Source: Bacilli bacterium
Lineage (GTDB): Bacteria > Bacillota_I > Bacilli_A > ML615J-28 > CAG-698
Assembly: GCA_017962745.1 (NCBI GenBank)
Contig: JAGCUR010000016.1
Span: 62,001 to 126,000, forward strand
DNA length: 64,000 nt
Reading direction: 5' to 3'
Shown: piece after piece, positions 46,604 through 63,739 of the stretch
Layout of the letters: every line of letters starts with the position of its first letter
Numbering within the stretch: the stretch's first letter is position 1
Made by a program: the position numbers and the translations under genes
Notes under the pieces: model-generated
Seen by the model: the letters and a program-made list of their open reading frames with translations, nothing else
Database searches by the model: none
What the model was told of the DNA's origin: nothing

Positions 46604-46789
46604 CATTTTTTTTATCAGCCCAGAAAGCCGTTAATACGCATGTGGACCATAAAGTTCACAGGGTGGATGTCTCTTGCGTAGCTTCGGGATTCTCTGCAGG
46701 GGGGCAAAGCGTTCACGCCCACTACACCTTGACTTCCTAAAAATAAAATGTTCGGCGCGCAATATAGTATAAATGCGAACTTTCCAGGT
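46575..46789 (-). ncRNA. Structured small RNA gene of about 215 nt (family not identified; 6S-like candidate)
   Basis: A non-coding stretch richer in G and C than its surroundings, with its own perfect promoter and terminator on the minus strand. The expected transcript begins near 46789. The ends pair: CCTGGAAAG (46788-46780) with CTTTCTGGG (46627-46619), then CGCAT (46777-46773) with ATGCG (46641-46637). Inside, GTGTAG pairs with CTACGC, and GGGC with GCCC around a small hairpin. Length, closed-end stem and single-gene transcription resemble 6S RNA, but I do not see decisive family sequence. It lacks the SRP RNA signature, a tRNA-like end (tmRNA) and RNase P conserved blocks. A 74-codon open frame here is not credible. 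Confidence 0.65.
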
Positions 46790-46795
46790 AATTTC

Positions 46796-48095: not shown

Positions 48096-49751
48096 TTATT
48101 TCACAGTAATTCTGCCTTCAGTATCACTATATTTATCTTTAAGATTTCCATGTAATACATTTACAATGTATTCAACAAGCACTTCATAATCATATTTTTC
48201 ACTAAATGGTAATAGTTCATTATTCATTAATTGATTTAAGCCATCACCACCATTTTGAATTAAATAATTATGAGACGCAACAATATAAGTTTTATTAACA
48301 TCTAATGGAACATATTCGCCATTCTCTAAAACCATTACGTTATTCACTCTTCTTGCTCCATTTACTTTTACAAACATATTATTGCTATCCACTTCTACAG
48401 TTGATTCAATGCTTGTATCAATGCTATATCTAAGCCCTGATACATTAAGAAAACCACCACATTCACCAATAGCTATGCCGTCTTTTTTATAATCACTTTG
48501 GACTAATCTTGATGCCATCTCTAATAAATCTAATATTTGTTTACCGCTTGCTTTCACAATACATACGGTATTACCATAAGGATGAATTGCCATAATATCT
48601 TTGAAAGAGATATCGCCCGATTTTAAATTGTCTCTAATACCGCCACCATTTACAAAGGCAATGTCAGCACCTGTTATACTACGATAAGCATCAGCAATTA
48701 AATTACCAAGCGGTGTTTCTCTACTTCTTACTAGTCTTATGCCTTCTTCATCAAAAATTGATAACGATATATCGCTAGTAGCTAACACTCTATTTCCTAA
48801 TTCCTCAGATTTATTTCTTACTATTCCTATATAATCTGCAATTTTTTGATCTATACCTTCATAGTCAGTAATAAAATCATATTCTAATTTGCCATCTTTC
48901 TTAATGGTCAATTTTCCAAATTCATTTAGTTTATAACCTGCATCGCAAATCCTAACTTCTTTTCCATCTTTATCTTCACAAGATATCCAATTAAGATCTA
49001 AATGCTGATGGCCATCCATAATAACATCTACGCCATTAATATTCTTAATTAAATTTTTAGAAGAAAAAATAGTAACATCAGAATAACCCAAATGAGACAA
49101 AAGAATGATATAATCAGCACCATCATTTTTACATGCATCAATGCTTGATTGAACGCAATCATAAAATTCTTGCGTTGTAGATGAAGAAAAACTATATGCA
49201 TATTTCCCATCTTCCATAAAGTTACTAGGTGATGATTCTGATAATGAATTCGGCGTAGTCACTCCAACAAACCCAACATCATATTTTCCATATGTTTTTA
49301 TAACATATGGTTTAACCATATCTATCTTGTTTTCATTACTACCTTCATATTTAATATTGCAAGATACTATATCACTATTTAAATTACTTAATAAAGAACT
49401 TAATTGATCAAAGCCATAATCAAATTCATGGTTACCTAATGTAACTACATCATATCCGATTTGATTCATTATATCTATGATATAAGAGCCTTTTGAAATC
49501 GTTCCAATATAATCACCTAGGATAAAATCTCCTGCATCAGCCAAAGCAACATAATTGTTATCTTCTATCATCGCATTTTTATAGGCACTTACTTTAGCAT
49601 AGCCCAAAGAATTGCTGTTACTGACATCATCAATAGAGCAATGAATATCTGTTGTATAAATAATAACAATATCTTTATCATTTGACCTCTTTGCACATGC
49701 AGTAAGACTGATAACAAAGATTAATAATAAAATACTAACTATTCTTTTCAT
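48096..49751 (-). CDS. 5'-nucleotidase/UshA-type surface lipoprotein
   Basis: Exported metallophosphoesterase that hydrolyses nucleotides or related phosphates, 551 residues. Lipobox LTACA near residue 19. The calcineurin-like domain shows TTDIHCSID, LADAGDFILGD, TLGNHEFDYGF and MDGHQHLD (metal ligands); the C-terminal 5'-nucleotidase domain (about 310-520) has ETPLGNLIADAYR, FVNGGGIRDNLKSGDIS and LIQNGGDGL. An in-frame ATG lies 15 bases further up, but AGGTGG sits just before the ATG at 49751, so that start is chosen. Transcribed alone. Confidence 0.92.
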   Translation of the reverse strand: MKRIVSILLLIFVISLTACAKRSNDKDIVIIYTTDIHCSIDDVSNSNSLGYAKVSAYKNAMIEDNNYVALADAGDFILGDYIGTISKGSYIIDIMNQIGYDVVTLGNHEFDYGFDQLSSLLSNLNSDIVSCNIKYEGSNENKIDMVKPYVIKTYGKYDVGFVGVTTPNSLSESSPSNFMEDGKYAYSFSSSTTQEFYDCVQSSIDACKNDGADYIILLSHLGYSDVTIFSSKNLIKNINGVDVIMDGHQHLDLNWISCEDKDGKEVRICDAGYKLNEFGKLTIKKDGKLEYDFITDYEGIDQKIADYIGIVRNKSEELGNRVLATSDISLSIFDEEGIRLVRSRETPLGNLIADAYRSITGADIAFVNGGGIRDNLKSGDISFKDIMAIHPYGNTVCIVKASGKQILDLLEMASRLVQSDYKKDGIAIGECGGFLNVSGLRYSIDTSIESTVEVDSNNMFVKVNGARRVNNVMVLENGEYVPLDVNKTYIVASHNYLIQNGGDGLNQLMNNELLPFSEKYDYEVLVEYIVNVLHGNLKDKYSDTEGRITVK

Positions 49752-49883
49752 ATGCCACCTCATCATTTTTTATGATTATATAATAATACCTAAAAGACTA
49801 CTAGCATTAAAGCACTACCGAAGATAAAGAAACAATTATCTCAACGTGACTCAGTTTGTATTCGGTAACAAATAAACTAAGTT

Positions 49884-51477: not shown

Positions 51478-51532
51478 ACATATTTGCACTTGTATAAGAG
51501 TATTATCCTGAGAATTGTTGTTCTCAGGTTAA
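51478..51532. repeat. 55-bp direct repeat, copy A, with internal stem-loop
   Basis: Matches copy B (51562-51616) at 49 of 55 positions, 84 bases apart start to start. Inside, CCTGAGAA (51507-51514) and TTCTCAGG (51521-51528) form a perfect 8-bp hairpin; outside it ACTTGTATAAGA (51488-51499) pairs with TCTTATATGAGT (51536-51547) at 10 of 12 positions. It lies between the recombinase stop and the terminator. Confidence 0.8.
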
Positions 51533-51549
51533 AAGTCTTATATGAGTAT
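51521..51549. repeat. Left copy of a 29-bp repeat that brackets the 12-kb element
   Basis: Identical at 26 of 29 positions to 63573-63601, in the same orientation, near the other end of the element. It may be an attachment-site remnant or a replication/recombination site carried twice by the element. Confidence 0.6.
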
Positions 51550-51561
51550 CATCGTGAATCG

Positions 51562-51616
51562 ACATATTTGTACTTGTATAAGAGTGTTATCCTGGGAATA
51601 GTTTTTCTCAAGTTAA
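51562..51616. repeat. 55-bp direct repeat, copy B
   Basis: Second copy of the repeat at 51478-51532. The internal stem is partly lost (CCTGGGAA against TTCTCAAG). It ends ten bases past the recombinase stop. The 336 bases between the AbiEi start and the recombinase stop contain only these repeats, the terminator and the AbiE promoter. Confidence 0.8.
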
Positions 51617-51625
51617 CATATATTT

Positions 51626-53662
51626 TCAGCTGTTCGTCGGTTCGTCCATTACATATATATTAGTCTTATTTTGAGCAATAATCATATTAATTGGCTTATT
51701 AGGCGTTATACCGAAACGTTCTAAAGCCTCCTTTATTACTAAATATTTTTGTCCTTTTGGTAAATACCCTTTTACTTGTTTACCCATTATATCATGGCGG
51801 ACATTCATGATATATTTTCTTGGAATGTTTAAATTGTGTGTTTGTTTAATGTAATCTACGATAAAGTTGTCAGAGTTTACGGCCATAGGCCGATTTCTAG
51901 TTTTAGGTTTGTAGTGTTCATGATGAATTATTGGGAAACCGATTTTACCCAGAATGTCATCAATTTCTACTCCGATTGAAACATCGTTCCTTCCTTCTAA
52001 CTTTTGATAGATATAAGGTAGGTTATCTTTATCCCATTTGATTTCAGATGTTTCATCTTGATTATTGAATAGTGGAAATTGAAAAGCGATTCTTTTAATT
52101 GGGTTTTCTCCTTCTTTGAAATCTTCTCTTAATTCAATTCCAGCAATTATCTTATGCAGCAATATCTTTTGATTATCTGGATCTAAATTTTTAATTAATG
52201 TTCCTGAGCCTTTAATGATTCCTAAGATATTTTCAGTATTGATAGAACGTGAGGTAATGTTATTTAGTTTATCTTGTGCTTTTTCTTTTAAATCTTGTAT
52301 TGTATACATATCATTATAGAATGCATCAAGTCTTCTATTTAAGTCTTTGTTCTTATCTACATATCTTGGATCACCTGTTGGGAGATTATCTATTTCTGTT
52401 ATTAATAGATTCTTCTTTTTCGTTAAATCCTTGTATTTAGCTTCATAAGTTTCAATTTCAATCTTTAGCTCTTCTACTGATTCTGTAGAATTGAGTTCTT
52501 TTACTACAACATCTTTTAAAGTGTCCGAACATGCAAACTTATCGATTATATCGATAACTACATTTTCAATGGCTTCAGCTGGTATCTTGTGTTTAAATGA
52601 GCATTTATCTTGATCATGCTTCTTTTGAATTGCATAGTGGCAAGCATAGGAGTGAGATCTATAGTCCTCTCCATCTTTATTTTTATAATGGATAGTATGA
52701 ACAAGAAGTGATCTGTAACATGTAGGACACATTATTAAATCAGATAATAAATAAACATGTTTCTTTGATTTTACATATCTTGATTTATTAAGTTGTCTTT
52801 TGTTCTTTACTCTTTCAAATAGTTCTTCTGATATTATGCCTTCGTGTTGGCCTTTTTCTTTTAAGTAGTTTTCTTTATTAACTCGATGATAATCGTTTTT
52901 AGTTCCTTTGACTTTTTCTTTACAGTATCTACCATATGGCATTAATCCTTCATAGACTTCATTATCAAGCATATACTTAATACCACTTTCTGTCCACTTA
53001 GTATATGCTTTTAATGTTCTATCAAATCTTGGATGATTAATATTAAGATATCTAACTATATCTCTAATACTCATTTTACCTGATGCATACATCTCGAAAA
53101 TGAATTTAACGATTTTAGCTTCATCTTCGTTTTGAATTAATATTCCATCTTGAATACTATATCCATATGGTGAAAAGCCACCATTCCATTTACCTTGTCT
53201 TGCTTTTTCTCTACGTCCAAGCATTGTTTGTTCTTGGATGTTTTCTCTTTCAATTTCAGCTACAGCCGATAAAACAGATATTAATAGCTTCCCTGATGGT
53301 GTTGAAGAATTGATTCCTTCATTAACACTAATCAAATGAACATCATAATCTCTAATAAATTCGATACTACTTAAAATATCTACTGCACTTCTACCGAATC
53401 TTGATAATTTAAAAACTAATACATAATTAACTTTCAAACCATTACCAATATCAGCCATCATCTTTTTGAAGGCAGGTCTACCTTCAATTGATTTACCACT
53501 CTTTCCCGCATCTTCATACTCTTCTACGATTAGCAAGTCATTCCTTTTTGCATATTCGTATAAAGTTTCTTTTTGCGCGCTGAGTGAGTAACCATCAACT
53601 TGCATCTCTGTTGACACTCTTACGTAAATTACACATTTTTCCTTTTCTTTTTCAGTATTCAT
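51626..53662 (-). CDS. Large serine recombinase/integrase
   Basis: Site-specific recombinase of 678 residues that probably integrates and excises the element. The resolvase domain (about 8-150) has the catalytic serine 17 in YVRVSTEMQ and the Arg motif KLSRFGRSAVD; the recombinase domain follows (GGFSPYGYSIQDG, ARQGKW), then a zinc-ribbon region (CPTCYRSLLVHT...YACHYAIQKKHDQDKCS), a coiled coil (about 390-460) and an unusually long C-terminal part of about 130 residues with NKPINMIIAQ. AGGAGG precedes the ATG by six bases. It ends in TGA, unlike the chromosomal genes. Gene order at the element's edge is typical. Confidence 0.93.
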   Translation of the reverse strand: MNTEKEKEKCVIYVRVSTEMQVDGYSLSAQKETLYEYAKRNDLLIVEEYEDAGKSGKSIEGRPAFKKMMADIGNGLKVNYVLVFKLSRFGRSAVDILSSIEFIRDYDVHLISVNEGINSSTPSGKLLISVLSAVAEIERENIQEQTMLGRREKARQGKWNGGFSPYGYSIQDGILIQNEDEAKIVKFIFEMYASGKMSIRDIVRYLNINHPRFDRTLKAYTKWTESGIKYMLDNEVYEGLMPYGRYCKEKVKGTKNDYHRVNKENYLKEKGQHEGIISEELFERVKNKRQLNKSRYVKSKKHVYLLSDLIMCPTCYRSLLVHTIHYKNKDGEDYRSHSYACHYAIQKKHDQDKCSFKHKIPAEAIENVVIDIIDKFACSDTLKDVVVKELNSTESVEELKIEIETYEAKYKDLTKKKNLLITEIDNLPTGDPRYVDKNKDLNRRLDAFYNDMYTIQDLKEKAQDKLNNITSRSINTENILGIIKGSGTLIKNLDPDNQKILLHKIIAGIELREDFKEGENPIKRIAFQFPLFNNQDETSEIKWDKDNLPYIYQKLEGRNDVSIGVEIDDILGKIGFPIIHHEHYKPKTRNRPMAVNSDNFIVDYIKQTHNLNIPRKYIMNVRHDIMGKQVKGYLPKGQKYLVIKEALERFGITPNKPINMIIAQNKTNIYVMDEPTNS

Positions 53663-53796: not shown

Positions 53797-54378
53797 TTAG
53801 TAATAACGATTTATGTACTCATCAACAATCTTAGAATAGTCATCATTAGATATTTTAATATCTAATCCAAATAGTTTTTTAAAATAAACTTTAGTAAATG
53901 CATAGGCATCTACTTCAATTGTTTGCATCATATATCCTTCATAATCTTCAACATCTACATAATATTTAAAATTATCTTGATATATTCTAGCAATATCACC
54001 AAGTGGTGAAGTATCATCTTTAAATAAAGCTATAAAATAGAGCTGATATAAATGTCTATATTCATGTGTTATACACTTTAAACATTCATATAGATTCTCT
54101 CTTAATGCCTCATTAATTGCGATGTACTGTTCTTTTACATATATCCTTGAATCTTCTTTGGCTAACTCTTCAAACACAATTGGAACAGGATCTATCCCTA
54201 GATAGTTAGCTACTCCATCTCCAAATGGAATTAGTTTTGCTAGCATTTCTTCTTCATTCCATTTATCTATTCCAAATGATTCAATGAATCTTGCTTTAAG
54301 ATCATCATCAGACATATTTTTAAAAACTTTTGAATACCTAAGGGCTAATTCTTTTAATTGTTGCAAGTTGTTGTTCAT
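53797..54378 (-). CDS. Small zincin metallopeptidase-like protein
   Basis: I do not recognise the family. The 193 residues carry HEYRH at 105-109 (HExxH) inside CITHEYRHLYQLYF, and MQTIEVDAYAF near 151-161 offers Glu 155 as third zinc ligand with Asp 157 nearby, the layout of a minimal gluzincin. There is no signal peptide or membrane span, so it is cytosolic. AAGGAGG precedes the ATG. It stands between the recombinase and the tandem structured repeats of the element. Similar small zincins in mobile elements can cleave a repressor (ImmA-like), but the substrate here is unknown. Confidence 0.6.
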   Translation of the reverse strand: MNNNLQQLKELALRYSKVFKNMSDDDLKARFIESFGIDKWNEEEMLAKLIPFGDGVANYLGIDPVPIVFEELAKEDSRIYVKEQYIAINEALRENLYECLKCITHEYRHLYQLYFIALFKDDTSPLGDIARIYQDNFKYYVDVEDYEGYMMQTIEVDAYAFTKVYFKKLFGLDIKISNDDYSKIVDEYINRYY

Positions 54379-54569
54379 CGTACCTCCTTTTTAAACAACA
54401 ACACCTCGTGTACACGCAGATATTATACCCGAAATTGAAGGTTTTTTGAACAGCATTTTTGAGTAATTTTTTAATTCTTTGATATTGTATAAAATACCTT
54501 TTCTATGCAGCTTTCTTAGAAAATATTTAACTTGTTTTTCTCAAATTTTCTCCTTTCGATAATATTAAA

Positions 54570-54774
54570 CATGGGGAGGTTATCATATAGTGATAAAGAA
54601 CAAACTTTTTTATCTTTTTCCCAATGTTTAGGACATTAAACCATGGAGGGTGGTCGTATTATGGCCATGAACAAAAAAAGTTACTTTTTTATCTCTTTTT
54701 CCCTATGTCACTAGCATTATTTCATAGTGGACTATCGTATTATGATAGTCTGGAAAAAAATTTAAATTTTTGCA
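54570..54774. repeat. Three tandem cruciform-forming repeats
   Basis: Units begin at 54570, 54642 and 54723. Each has CAT, a G-rich arm, a central hairpin, an A-rich stretch and a T-rich stretch; the first two end CCC...ATG. Central hairpins: TTATCA/TGATAA (54580-54596), TGGTC/GGCCA (54651-54667) and GACTATC/GATAGTC (54730-54750). The last two share loop GTATTAT although their stems differ, so pairing is kept while sequence changes. In units 1 and 2 an outer stem also forms (CATGGGGA with TTCCCAATG; CATGGAGGG with CCCTATG). The interval 54379-54805 has no gene. Confidence 0.7.
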
Positions 54775-54803
54775 TAAAAAAACTTCAGGTTATTATCCTG
54801 AAG
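54774..54803 (-). terminator. Terminator of the DUF2971 gene
   Basis: CTTCAGG (54783-54789) and CCTGAAG (54797-54803) enclose a seven-base loop; a run of seven T follows on the minus strand. Confidence 0.85.
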
Positions 54804-54805
54804 CT

Positions 54806-55900
54806 TTATTGATAATCATCATTTTCATAAATATAATCGTTTATATATTTATTAAACCTTCTATACTTAATAGACCAGTTATTTTCTCTAGCTAAATCAA
54901 TAAGTTCCTTAGCTCTTTCTGTTTCTTTACCGTTTTCATCGATGATAATTGATGAAACAATATTTACAAACAATTTATTATCACCTTTATACTGAAGAAT
55001 TCTCCATTCATCTTCACTAGAATAAAATGACAATTTAGAAATCATTTGTTCATATACTAATCGTTCTTGTTCGCTATAAAAATCTTTATCGGCAGTTTCT
55101 AAAACAATTCTCATCAAGATCTTAGAAAGAGAAAATTTTTTCAATTGTTTATAATACTTCACCTTGAAGCATCTTAAAAGCAGTCTTTTAATGCTTTCTT
55201 TTTCTATGCAAGCTTTATTAAAATCATATTCTATGCAAAATCCATTTCCTTTTGAATAATCATCCCACATAAAATTATTATTATGCGAACCAGACATAGA
55301 AAAAATCTTAGTATCTTTTCTTATTCTCTCTGTTATTTTTAAAATATCATTAAATGATTTTTCAATTTCTTCTGTATGCTCACTGATAGAATCATTAATT
55401 ATCTTCACCATACGCTTTGCCATCTCGTTAGATTCTATACGAGACATTCCAGACATATTGAGTGAATCAACCAAATTATCAAAGCTCACCTTTCCATCAT
55501 TACTATTAATATTCTTGATGAAAATTTCAATTATTCTTCTATGTTGAGAAGTCAACTGATTTTGAATATTAGGATTATTTTTATATAATGAAGCAAATGC
55601 AACATATGGGTTTTCTAGAACAAATTTCTTTAAATCCATCATATCACTTTGATAATCAACATTTAACCTAGCATCCCTCTTATCTTTCATATCTTCTGCA
55701 TCTGCAATCCAAAGATATTTTTCTTTTAGAGAGTCTAGAGTTTTATTAAATTGCTCATCTTCAAAATTTCGATATTTATATAGTCTTCCTTTATTAGGCA
55801 ATGTATTTAATAAATCGTTAAACAATTCATTTATATCTTCATTTGATAATTGTTCAAATGGCTTTTTATTCAGTTTTTCAAAATATTCATTACGTTTCAT
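54806..55900 (-). CDS. DUF2971-like protein of the defence island
   Basis: A 364-residue cytosolic protein of unknown biochemical role. Family features of DUF2971 are visible: RLYKYRNFEDEQFNKTLDSL near residue 40, LWIADAEDMKDKRDAR (usually ...FNDPFD), IFSMSGSHNNNFMWDDYSKG and GFCIEYDF (about 200-230), and SSEDEWRILQ near 305. A helical insert with many charged residues occupies about 80-195. DUF2971 genes are often found among phage-defence genes. It has GAGGG before the ATG and its own terminator, so it is a single-gene unit. Confidence 0.7.
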   Translation of the reverse strand: MKRNEYFEKLNKKPFEQLSNEDINELFNDLLNTLPNKGRLYKYRNFEDEQFNKTLDSLKEKYLWIADAEDMKDKRDARLNVDYQSDMMDLKKFVLENPYVAFASLYKNNPNIQNQLTSQHRRIIEIFIKNINSNDGKVSFDNLVDSLNMSGMSRIESNEMAKRMVKIINDSISEHTEEIEKSFNDILKITERIRKDTKIFSMSGSHNNNFMWDDYSKGNGFCIEYDFNKACIEKESIKRLLLRCFKVKYYKQLKKFSLSKILMRIVLETADKDFYSEQERLVYEQMISKLSFYSSEDEWRILQYKGDNKLFVNIVSSIIIDENGKETERAKELIDLARENNWSIKYRRFNKYINDYIYENDDYQ

Positions 55901-61072: not shown

Positions 61073-62116
61073 TTAGTAATTAGTAATAATTACTTCCTCA
61101 ACAGGACCTCTTCCATTAGCATTTGAATTAATCATTCTTTTTGCTTCAATAACATGAATATTATGGTCTTTATACAAATCTCTTATGAATTTAGTATTAT
61201 GATTACTTAGCATTACTTTAACGCCTTTTGATGTTAATTCATCAAATACAAAGGCAAGTCTCTTTTGTTCTTCTTTTCCAAATGCATCTTTTGAATATGC
61301 TGTAAAAGAATCTTTATCATCTAGCGTGTCATATGGAGGGTCAAAATAAACAAAATCTCCAGCTTTAGCATGAGAAACTACTTCTTCATAATCCCCATTA
61401 AATATATTTACCTTATTATTTGCAAAGTAGTTTTTAATTGAATACATATTGTTTTTATCGTAAGTGTTAACTTTTTCTTTCTTTCCTGAAGGAACATTGA
61501 AAAAGCCTTTAGCATTTACTCTATATAAACCATTAAAACATGCTTTATTTAAATAAATCATTCTTGCAGCACGAACATAAATAGGTAGTGTATTAAAGAA
61601 TGGATTCTTATCCATTTCTCTTATTGAATAATAATATTCTTCACTATGATTCTTTTCGTGTTCATCAAGTAATTCTAATAACGAATTAAAATCATCATCG
61701 TTTTTAAAACACTCATATACACATATTAGTTCACTATTAGAATCATTAATATAAGCTTTCTTAGGAGCAATATCAAAGAACAAGGCTCCACCGCCAACAA
61801 ATGGTTCAAAATAGGTATCATAAGATTCAGGCATTAGTTCTTTCAACTTCGCCAATAGTTGCGTTTTACCACCAGCCCATTTTGCAAATGGATGCATCAC
61901 TTTTTGATATCTAAAATTTAATAATTCATTAATTGGAACTTTTATCGCATTACTTAGTTTTTCCATTGTTTCCAAAGTGACATTAGCTGTTCCGTTCTCA
62001 ATCTTTGAAATTTGCGCTCTTTCAATGCCAGATAGCTTTGCAAGGTCTAATTGAGAAAGCATTGCACTAGTTCTTAATTCTTTTAATCTAATTCCAAAAG
62101 CTTCTTGTATTTCCAT
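61073..62116 (-). CDS. dpnM: DpnM-type GATC methylase with N-terminal XRE domain
   Basis: Alpha-class Dam-like adenine methylase fused to a DNA-binding domain, 347 residues. Residues about 8-60 form an XRE helix-turn-helix (RLKELRTSAMLSQLDLAKLSGIERAQISKIENG, in two pieces). The methylase follows: PFAKWAGGKTQLL, motif I FEPFVGGGALFF, NKACFNGLYRVN and motif IV GDFVYFDPPYD. DpnM itself is about 284 residues without this domain, so the fusion may replace a separate controller protein. The ATG at 62116 has GGGTGA upstream; a longer frame is rejected. TATAAT lies at 62138-62133. Confidence 0.9.
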   Translation of the reverse strand: MEIQEAFGIRLKELRTSAMLSQLDLAKLSGIERAQISKIENGTANVTLETMEKLSNAIKVPINELLNFRYQKVMHPFAKWAGGKTQLLAKLKELMPESYDTYFEPFVGGGALFFDIAPKKAYINDSNSELICVYECFKNDDDFNSLLELLDEHEKNHSEEYYYSIREMDKNPFFNTLPIYVRAARMIYLNKACFNGLYRVNAKGFFNVPSGKKEKVNTYDKNNMYSIKNYFANNKVNIFNGDYEEVVSHAKAGDFVYFDPPYDTLDDKDSFTAYSKDAFGKEEQKRLAFVFDELTSKGVKVMLSNHNTKFIRDLYKDHNIHVIEAKRMINSNANGRGPVEEVIITNY

Positions 62117-62132
62117 TTTTATCACCCATAAC

Positions 62133-62163
62133 ATTATATCATAAATGTGTAATAAAATACACA
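62133..62163 (-). promoter_or_regulatory. DpnM promoter with inverted-repeat operator
   Basis: A TATAAT box (62138-62133) is preceded by TGTGTA (62146-62151) and TACACA (62158-62163), a perfect 6-bp inverted repeat with six bases between. It covers the spacer and the -35 area, so a protein bound there would block transcription. The XRE domain of the gene product is the obvious candidate; this is inference. Confidence 0.6.
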
Positions 62164-62191
62164 ATCAATATTATTTTTTTATTCTATATTT

Positions 62192-62224: not shown

Positions 62225-63388
62225 TTAAAATGGTAAATCTCTAAAGCTTTGAATACGCTTCTCTATTAACAACTCAAGATCATTTGTTTCATTTCCTGTT
62301 ATAGGTTTAGCGCATAACGATTTTAAATATTCATTAATCCGTTCAAAATCTCTACTATTAAATGATTGTTTTTGAGTTAATTTTAGTAAATCAATTATCG
62401 TTTTATCTATGTCATTTCTATTGATTAGACAAATGTATTGTATATATTTGCCTACAATTGGTTCTGCCCATTCTCGATAATTTTCTAATTTTGATTTCTT
62501 TTTAATCTTATATCTTTTTAATTTACATTTAGATACATCATTTAGGAATGCTTTCCATTGATGGTCTGTTTCAATTTTATATTGGTTATTGTTGTCATAA
62601 TCATTATCTTCTTTAAGATCTAGCAAATCATATAAAAGAGAATAAAAGAATTCACTATATTTGTCTACTTCACAGTTAACTAGATTCATACAGACATCGT
62701 ATGCCTTTTCTCTTCTGAATCTCATTTCAAATCTTAACCAGTATGGTTGTCTGCAATATCCTTTTTTCTTTTTTTGTTCTTTATTCTTTTCATAGATGCA
62801 GAGTTCTTGAGTCGATTCATGACTTCCTAGTTGTAATGTAAAACCTAATTCATCATTTCCATGAATAATGTATTTCTTACTTCTAAATGAAGTTGTGTAA
62901 TAATCATTATCCATTTTATATCTGATATATTCTAGATTTACATCTTTACCTTCATAATCATCAATGGTTAAATCGATTCTGGTTGGTGTTCCATTAAGTC
63001 GAATCAAACAGAATTCTATAAAATCTTTCCAGGTTTTATCTTTATTATGATTTTCCCATTCTCTGCAACCTTCTCCTTTAAGTTCTATGCTGCAAGAGTG
63101 ATATCCTGATTTTAACTCAGGGCCAATTAATCTTAAAGTTATACATCCAGCTATTGTATATTGATGTTTAAAACGATTTTGAGCATATTCTTCTTTCACT
63201 ATATCTTCTTTTGTATAGCCCAAAAAATCAATAATCATATTAACTATATCTTCAATAACATATAATTCATAATCTTCTGCATGTATTAGAAACGGAAATG
63301 TACACGAGATGTAATCAATAATAATATGTGTTCCCGTTCTAATTTCATCTAAGTTTGTTAAATCGATAAAATCGTTATTATTACTCAT
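62225..63388 (-). CDS. Rolling-circle replication initiator (Rep_trans/MobT-like)
   Basis: Replication initiator or relaxase of 387 residues that nicks one strand at an origin. Family features: IIIDYISCTFPF near the N-terminus, GTPTRIDLTIDDYEG (about 130-145), and YWLRFEMRFRREKAYDVC, the R-x-E-x-R-x-R strand typical of the Rep_trans group that includes plasmid Rep proteins and the Tn916 relaxase. The tyrosine in SYHS or IEYIRYK-like segments could be the nicking residue; I cannot fix it. The ATG at 63388 was chosen because the longer frame runs through the origin-like hairpin; no clear ribosome binding site precedes it. Confidence 0.82.
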   Translation of the reverse strand: MSNNNDFIDLTNLDEIRTGTHIIIDYISCTFPFLIHAEDYELYVIEDIVNMIIDFLGYTKEDIVKEEYAQNRFKHQYTIAGCITLRLIGPELKSGYHSCSIELKGEGCREWENHNKDKTWKDFIEFCLIRLNGTPTRIDLTIDDYEGKDVNLEYIRYKMDNDYYTTSFRSKKYIIHGNDELGFTLQLGSHESTQELCIYEKNKEQKKKKGYCRQPYWLRFEMRFRREKAYDVCMNLVNCEVDKYSEFFYSLLYDLLDLKEDNDYDNNNQYKIETDHQWKAFLNDVSKCKLKRYKIKKKSKLENYREWAEPIVGKYIQYICLINRNDIDKTIIDLLKLTQKQSFNSRDFERINEYLKSLCAKPITGNETNDLELLIEKRIQSFRDLPF

Positions 63389-63420
63389 ATTTATCTGTTT
63401 TCTAGAACAAACTTTCAGAT

Positions 63421-63534
63421 AGCGCCCATATAATATAAAAATATAAGTATTATTACAGGTAATTCCCAATTTATGTGTTACGACCGCTATTAGTATAGCG
63501 GTCGACACCACATATAATTTTGGGCGCCTTACCT
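63421..63534. other. Candidate double-strand origin (nick region) for Rep
   Basis: A perfect 10-bp stem, CGACCGCTAT (63481-63490) with ATAGCGGTCG (63495-63504), has the four-base loop TAGT. It lies inside crossed inverted repeats: GCGCCCA (63422-63428) with TGGGCGC (63521-63527), and AGGTAA (63457-63462) with TTACCT (63529-63534). It is among the most G+C-rich parts of the element. Position directly upstream of rep is usual for origins of rolling-circle replicons. Confidence 0.6.
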
Positions 63535-63572
63535 ATTAATTACATAATATATTACCCAATTATATGATTATT

Positions 63573-63601
63573 TTCTCAGTTTAAGAGTCTTATATAAGTA
63601 T
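63573..63601. repeat. Right copy of the 29-bp repeat bracketing the element
   Basis: Matches 51521-51549 at 26 of 29 positions. Beyond it, up to the next gene at 63740, the sequence is AT-rich with no gene; the stretch CGACGGTCTGTTGCGACGT near 63612-63630 is unusually G+C-rich for its surroundings. Confidence 0.6.
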
Positions 63602-63739
63602 GCGAGTGTCTCGACGGTCTGTTGCGACGTAAGTGAAACACACTTAGAAAACATATTATACTATTAATTAATAATCTATGTGATTATACCAAAATATTAG
63701 CCCAGTTAAACAATACTTATATTTATGATTTCTTCTGTT

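Follow-up and report, generated by a model that had tools for sequence, protein, structure and literature searches.

A mobilizable element from a gut-type Bacilli bacterium carries, in its largest non-coding gap (427 nt), a tandem array of three units, each with a central hairpin. The stems of these hairpins differ from unit to unit and keep pairing, which raises the question of whether the array acts as an RNA, acts as DNA or does not act at all. The most probable of the readings considered here, which we hold tentatively, is that the array specifies a short structured + strand RNA, private to this element. All positions refer to the window, that is the whole stretch of 64,000 nt that was analysed.

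The coordinates, the spacing, the stems and the two GTATTAT loops given in an earlier note on this DNA are all present in the sequence (Table 1). CAT marks each of the three unit starts, which lie 72 and 81 nt apart, and every unit follows the same order: a G-rich start (CATGGGGAGG, CATGGAGGGTGG and CATAGTGGAC), followed by the central palindrome, then an A-rich and finally a T-rich stretch. The stem letters are TTATCA/TGATAA in unit 1, TGGTC/GGCCA in unit 2 and GACTATC/GATAGTC in unit 3; the pair numbers in Table 1 include G-U pairs, the 3-nt loops are ATA, ATT and ATT, and the GTATTAT loop is that of units 2 and 3. A stretch of 25 nt is common to units 1 and 2 (80% identity), whose 3' ends read TTTTTCCCAATGT and TTTTTCCCTATGT, and indels set the units apart from one another. 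Conservation among the units concerns the centre and the flanks rather than the arms. The outer stems that had been described for units 1 and 2 were recovered in unit 1 (11/12 complementary), whereas by hand reading that of unit 2 is weaker and bulged and unit 3 has none. The array was not listed by Tandem Repeats Finder, presumably because the copies are too divergent.

Table 1. Array features and main genes of the element, with their positions in the window
Feature	Position	Strand	Description
Unit 1	54570..54634	+	Outer stem CATGGGGA ... TCCCAATGTTT; direct repeat D1, inverted repeat I20; covariance model 40.6 bits
Unit 2	54642..54708	+	Covariance model 55.1 bits
Unit 3	54723..54774	+	No outer stem; covariance model 54.4 bits
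Hairpin 1	54580..54596	+	TTATCATATAGTGATAA; 7 pairs, 3-nt loop (or 6 pairs, loop of 5)
Hairpin 2	54650..54668	+	GTGGTCGTATTATGGCCAT; 8 pairs, three of them G-U; disrupted on the minus strand
Hairpin 3	54728..54752	+	TGGACTATCGTATTATGATAGTCTG; 11 pairs, 3-nt loop
Terminator hairpin overlapping the DUF2971 stop region	54783..54803	both	T7 tail on the minus strand (DUF2971), reaching 54776
Predicted promoter of the zincin-recombinase genes	54422..54450	-	TTCAAA-17-TATAAT
Large serine recombinase of the element	51626..53662	-	
Zincin-like HExRH protein	53797..54378	-	Found together with the serine recombinase in related elements
DUF2971 protein	54806..55900	-	PF11185; PADLOC PDC-S31
Rep_trans/MobT-like relaxase	62225..63511	-	

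The three-unit array is not due to chance. Its gap-free self-similarity at offsets of 60-99 reaches 21.2; in 1000 dinucleotide shuffles the mean was 8.7 and the maximum 15. A triple of stems with 7 or more pairs each, the same loop size (3) and a spacing of 60-90 was found in 0 of 5000 shuffles and, in 425 kb of real DNA of these genomes read on both strands, only in the array and in one other place; both statistics were picked after the array had been seen. Hairpins of the size listed in the earlier note, taken alone, are not rare: a weaker test (at least 5 pairs, loop of 7, G-C not required) was passed by 17% of the shuffles.

A helix of nine pairs can be followed through the three units. 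Within it 24 of the 27 cells pair, three pairs are altered on both sides and four of the nine vary on one side, always by way of G-U. The measure of helix pairing and double-sided change was reached by 18 of 500 shuffles and the covariation score by 12 of 500, for three paralogous copies within one array only. The three double-sided changes suggest selection on structure, as had been argued from compensatory change, in copies of this array that have no independent homologous array to stand beside them. The covariation signal is weakened once a possible unit from the sister genome G001 (see below) is included, with the double-sided changes reached by 161 of 500 shuffles and the covariation score by 9 of 500.

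The tolerated non-Watson-Crick pairs on the + strand comprise 5 G-U and 0 A-C, in a small sample of 4-5 independent pairs. Because these mismatches are without exception G-U when read on the + strand, folding is poorer on the minus strand: hairpins 1, 2 and 3 have energies of -3.6, -8.0 and -10.8 kcal/mol as + strand RNA and of -2.4, -0.7 and -8.0 kcal/mol as minus-strand RNA, hairpin 2 has -0.4 kcal/mol as minus-strand DNA, and the whole array as RNA has -54 on the + strand against -40 on the minus strand. This G-U-only pattern mildly favours a folded + strand RNA over a folded minus-strand DNA. The fold z-score is -3.4 on the + strand, where it was matched by 0 of 200 shuffles, and -2.1 on the minus strand; z-scores of similar strength occur in more than 20 other stretches of the same element, so that fold energy alone is no argument. 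The repeated RNA of the earlier note is thus mildly favoured by the G-U-only pattern and the difference in z-score, but the analysis turned up neither a convincing + strand promoter nor a partner for it.

In the predicted fold of a + strand RNA covering 54560-54812, hairpins 2 and 3 and the terminator hairpin form with a probability of ~1 and hairpin 1 with a probability of ~0, since units 1 and 2 engage each other in a more extended helix that encloses hairpin 2. A picture of three equal beads therefore holds only at the local scale.

The array is thus flanked by the DUF2971 terminator on one side and by the predicted zincin promoter on the other. The terminator hairpin follows closely on unit 3; on the + strand its T tail is weak, and it could possibly mark the 3' end of an array RNA. 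No + strand promoter reaching even a loose consensus was found between 54380 and 54560. The unit hairpins were rejected as tandem intrinsic terminators, for no T-run directly follows them. A protein-coding repeat was likewise rejected: GxxSY-like motifs occur in a 62-aa ORF on the + strand (54624-54812) and in a 22-aa stretch of unit 1, but in different frames and with no good ribosome-binding site, and the 62-aa ORF had no match in PHROGs. A frame with RIM, common to units 2 and 3 and to the G001 unit (there RMM), meets a stop codon in unit 1, and the similar sequences seen in viral contigs belong to a phage protein gene.

Transcription of a + strand RNA would converge on that of DUF2971 and diverge from that of the zincin gene, and may start from a weak promoter around 54460-54500. 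Units 1 and 2 are predicted to form one long hairpin capped by hairpin 2, followed on the 3' side by hairpin 3 and then by the terminator hairpin shared with DUF2971. Such a multi-site RNA would probably bind a protein through its repeated hairpins with their common AUU loop, and DUF2971, by adjacency, is the sole obvious candidate for this partner. If transcribed and bound by protein, the array would provide an RNA component for a poorly studied candidate defence protein and would extend the set of mobile elements with tandem stem-loop RNAs. On present evidence the array is an isolated feature and belongs to none of the described RNA families tested.

The element is bordered by a core 5'-nucleotidase gene (48096-49766) on one side and on the other by an rlmD-like 23S rRNA methyltransferase gene, which lies immediately beyond the right edge of the window (L043:89-1438). 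Its genes all lie on the minus strand, in the order AbiEi/AbiEii-like, serine recombinase, zincin, DUF2971, methyltransferase, MazG-like, GmrSD, DpnII restriction, methyltransferase, HTH-Dam fusion and Rep_trans/MobT-like relaxase, the AbiEi/AbiEii-like genes being possibly outside the element, at its left edge. In the fusion gene (61073-62164), part of a DpnII-type restriction locus, HTH_3 is joined to a D12-class (Dam-like) methyltransferase. An att-like repeat, ACATATTTG(C/T)ACTTGTATAAGAGT(A/G)TTATCCTG(A/G)GAA, is present in two copies at the left (51480-51615), and another, TTCTCAG(G/T)TTAA(A/G)AGTCTTATAT(G/A)AGTAT, at both ends (about 51.48-51.62 kb and 63570-63605), which may be the ends of the element. 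The array was rejected as a set of recombinase attachment sites, since the att-like repeats occur at those ends instead. The Rep_trans gene opens with a strong palindrome, ACGACCGCTATTAGTATAGCGGTCG (63461-63511), which is a candidate oriT or nick site. Elsewhere in the window, a 6S RNA is encoded on the minus strand at 46613-46793 (Rfam RF00013, 51.2 bits).

The earlier note had placed the array between the zincin and DUF2971 genes and considered a link to defence possible. By PADLOC (PDC-S31), DUF2971 is still a candidate defence gene, but its homologues have no such array, and no close relative of it was found in the genome contigs. A second DUF2971 gene of the same genome (39% identity; L107:322-2580, G000:C7) adjoins an Abi_2 (AbiF-type) gene. 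The region upstream of that Abi_2 gene has, on the same strand, TTGACA...TATAAT, which resembles a promoter, and a short RNA-like stretch with strong folding (z of -5.2 for the whole gap, no match in Rfam), a candidate for an unlisted AbiF antitoxin RNA.

For the zincin, a link to defence finds no support. Its homologues in the order and class have HExRH and E-x-D-A-x-A-F in common, and the zincin has no Pfam family above cut-off. In at least four related elements (L027, L052, L055 and L056), the zincin gene has a related serine recombinase gene behind it (37-40% identity across longer stretches) and a divergently oriented gene in front, which Pfam classes as HTH in L052 and L056 and, only weakly, in L027 and L055; the more distant L030, L035, L050 and L060 have an identical gene order. 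A divergent HTH gene, a zincin gene and a large serine recombinase gene thus recur as a module of mobilizable elements, in some with Rep_trans nearby. Since its homologues pair with a serine recombinase, the zincin belongs to the integration module and not with DUF2971. The window lacks an HTH gene at this place, and the corresponding interval is filled by the array; the HTH-zincin gap contains three TTTCC...GGAAA dyads in L052 and dyads of the GATAAC/GTTATC type in L055. A hairpin triple like the array was found in none of the gaps of four related Rep/recombinase elements. Close relatives of the recombinase, Rep and zincin were absent from the viral contigs, and those of the zincin from phages and plasmids.

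No second array was found in Rfam, phages, plasmids and viral contigs, by DNA search within the genus, in 28 family genomes (DNA, pattern and covariance model searches), in 395 class genomes (DNA search) or at the loci of homologues of both flanking genes. Rfam gave no antitoxin-RNA match at gathering scores in the window, and for the array itself a limit as loose as E 5 brought none either. One candidate relative emerged, a single unit in G001 (rumen Bacilli MAG RGIG8164, L011:4057-4098), intergenic beside tRNA-Ser and 87% identical over 38 bases (30.8 bits, E 0.0015). It is borderline, because the next covariance-model match, a chance coding match in G025, scores 29.1 bits; most other matches checked are also genic. 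A DNA match in G349 (E 1e-5), rejected as lying inside a sugar-kinase-like gene, calibrates chance in the same way. The G001 unit pairs poorly and its predicted fold lacks the expected hairpin, which, if it is a real relative, it has not kept. A covariation search in related elements, proposed in the earlier note, hence came down to this one unit and no homologous array. Judged by these searches, the array appears private to one genome or element, and this isolation restricts how far sequence comparison can serve as proof. The tRNA-Ser(GCT) flanks of G001 (L011:4090-5398) are split ~35 kb apart in the genome of the array (G000:C4:38373-39595 and 73065-73162), suggesting an island integrated at that tRNA or a rearrangement beside it.

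The main rival of a + strand RNA, only somewhat less probable, is a neutral or decaying tandem repeat without function, left by duplication of a palindromic unit in a non-coding gap. Template switching during replication would perfect quasi-palindromes in one step and so mimic compensatory change. The restriction of the array to one genome and its absence from related elements fit this explanation, as do the indels between units, the outer stem missing in unit 3, the want of a + strand promoter and the unpaired state of the possible G001 relative. Template switching yields Watson-Crick pairs, and a G-U-only pattern on one strand, here in 4-5 independent pairs, is expected neither from it nor from drift, which argues mildly against a neutral origin.

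The array could instead consist of double-stranded DNA operators, three dyads that would bind a dimeric regulator of the zincin-recombinase operon. It stands where L052 and L055 have a divergent HTH gene and repeated dyads, and units 1 and 3 have TATC-N7-GATA in common; the half-sites of unit 2 differ (GGTC/GGCC), and it is not the arms that are conserved. As the dyads lie ~130-330 bp upstream of the predicted zincin promoter, without overlapping it, and the gap has no HTH gene, we consider operators improbable.

A single-strand (lagging-strand) origin, in which hairpins would prime second-strand synthesis on the displaced strand of this Rep-driven element, had been proposed in the earlier note and is disfavoured here as quite improbable. 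Known sso elements (pBAA1, ICEBs1 sso1) also have three stem-loops, and in ICEBs1 the relaxase gene is followed directly by sso1 (PMC4595007). The array occupies the largest non-coding gap of an element with a Rep_trans/MobT-like relaxase, but ~7.4 kb away from the relaxase gene. By analogy with ICEBs1, the displaced strand would be the relaxase sense strand, here the minus strand, on which hairpin 2 is broken; related Rep/recombinase elements lack a similar array.

An antitoxin RNA of the type III kind, with DUF2971 (or the zincin) as its toxin, is very improbable. In type III and AbiF systems the antitoxin is an array built from a repeated structured motif, with a terminator close by (PMC12373285); the three-unit array resembles this and adjoins a defence candidate. 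The known arrays, however, precede the toxin gene in the same direction, whereas the strand favoured here converges on DUF2971 and diverges from the zincin gene, and their units measure 33-50 nt against 72-81 here; no Rfam type III or abiF match was obtained, and the DUF2971 homologues lack an array. Similarly improbable is a new tandem stem-loop RNA binding and controlling the DUF2971 protein in an RNA-regulated defence or toxin pair, where the stems would vary freely and the triloop and the A/U-rich spacers would be recognised.

Turning from these rivals to the described systems themselves, the array can be set beside four of them. Like the HTH-zincin gap dyads of related elements, which are likely operators, the array comprises several dyads in the corresponding intergenic interval; unlike them, it has no HTH gene, lies far upstream of the promoter and has arms that are not conserved. 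With sso elements of the pBAA1 and ICEBs1 sso1 type it shares ~200 nt of non-coding DNA, three hairpins and a Rep-driven element, but its stems pair better on the strand opposite to the one presumed to be displaced, the relaxase gene is far away, and related elements have not conserved it. TIGR arrays (Tas/Nop systems, PMC12045711) are also tandem stem-loops whose palindromes vary yet stay paired. Unlike them, the array does not consistently place box C (CCA) and box D (UG) on either side of spacers of 8-12 nt (among the three units read, CCA occurs only at the start of unit 2 and no box positions are common), and the flanks between its units 1 and 2 are conserved instead of being variable spacers; a Pfam scan of the recombinase, zincin, DUF2971, methyltransferases, MazG, GmrSD, DpnII, AbiEii and Rep revealed no Nop domain. 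From the type III antitoxin RNAs (ToxI, antiQ, TenpI, CptI) and the AbiF antitoxin RNA (RF03085; RCd22), the array is distinguished by its position downstream of and opposite to DUF2971, with no ToxN or AbiF gene beside it. What it has in common with them is a series of short tandem structured repeats, carried by a mobile element and placed near a candidate defence gene and a terminator.
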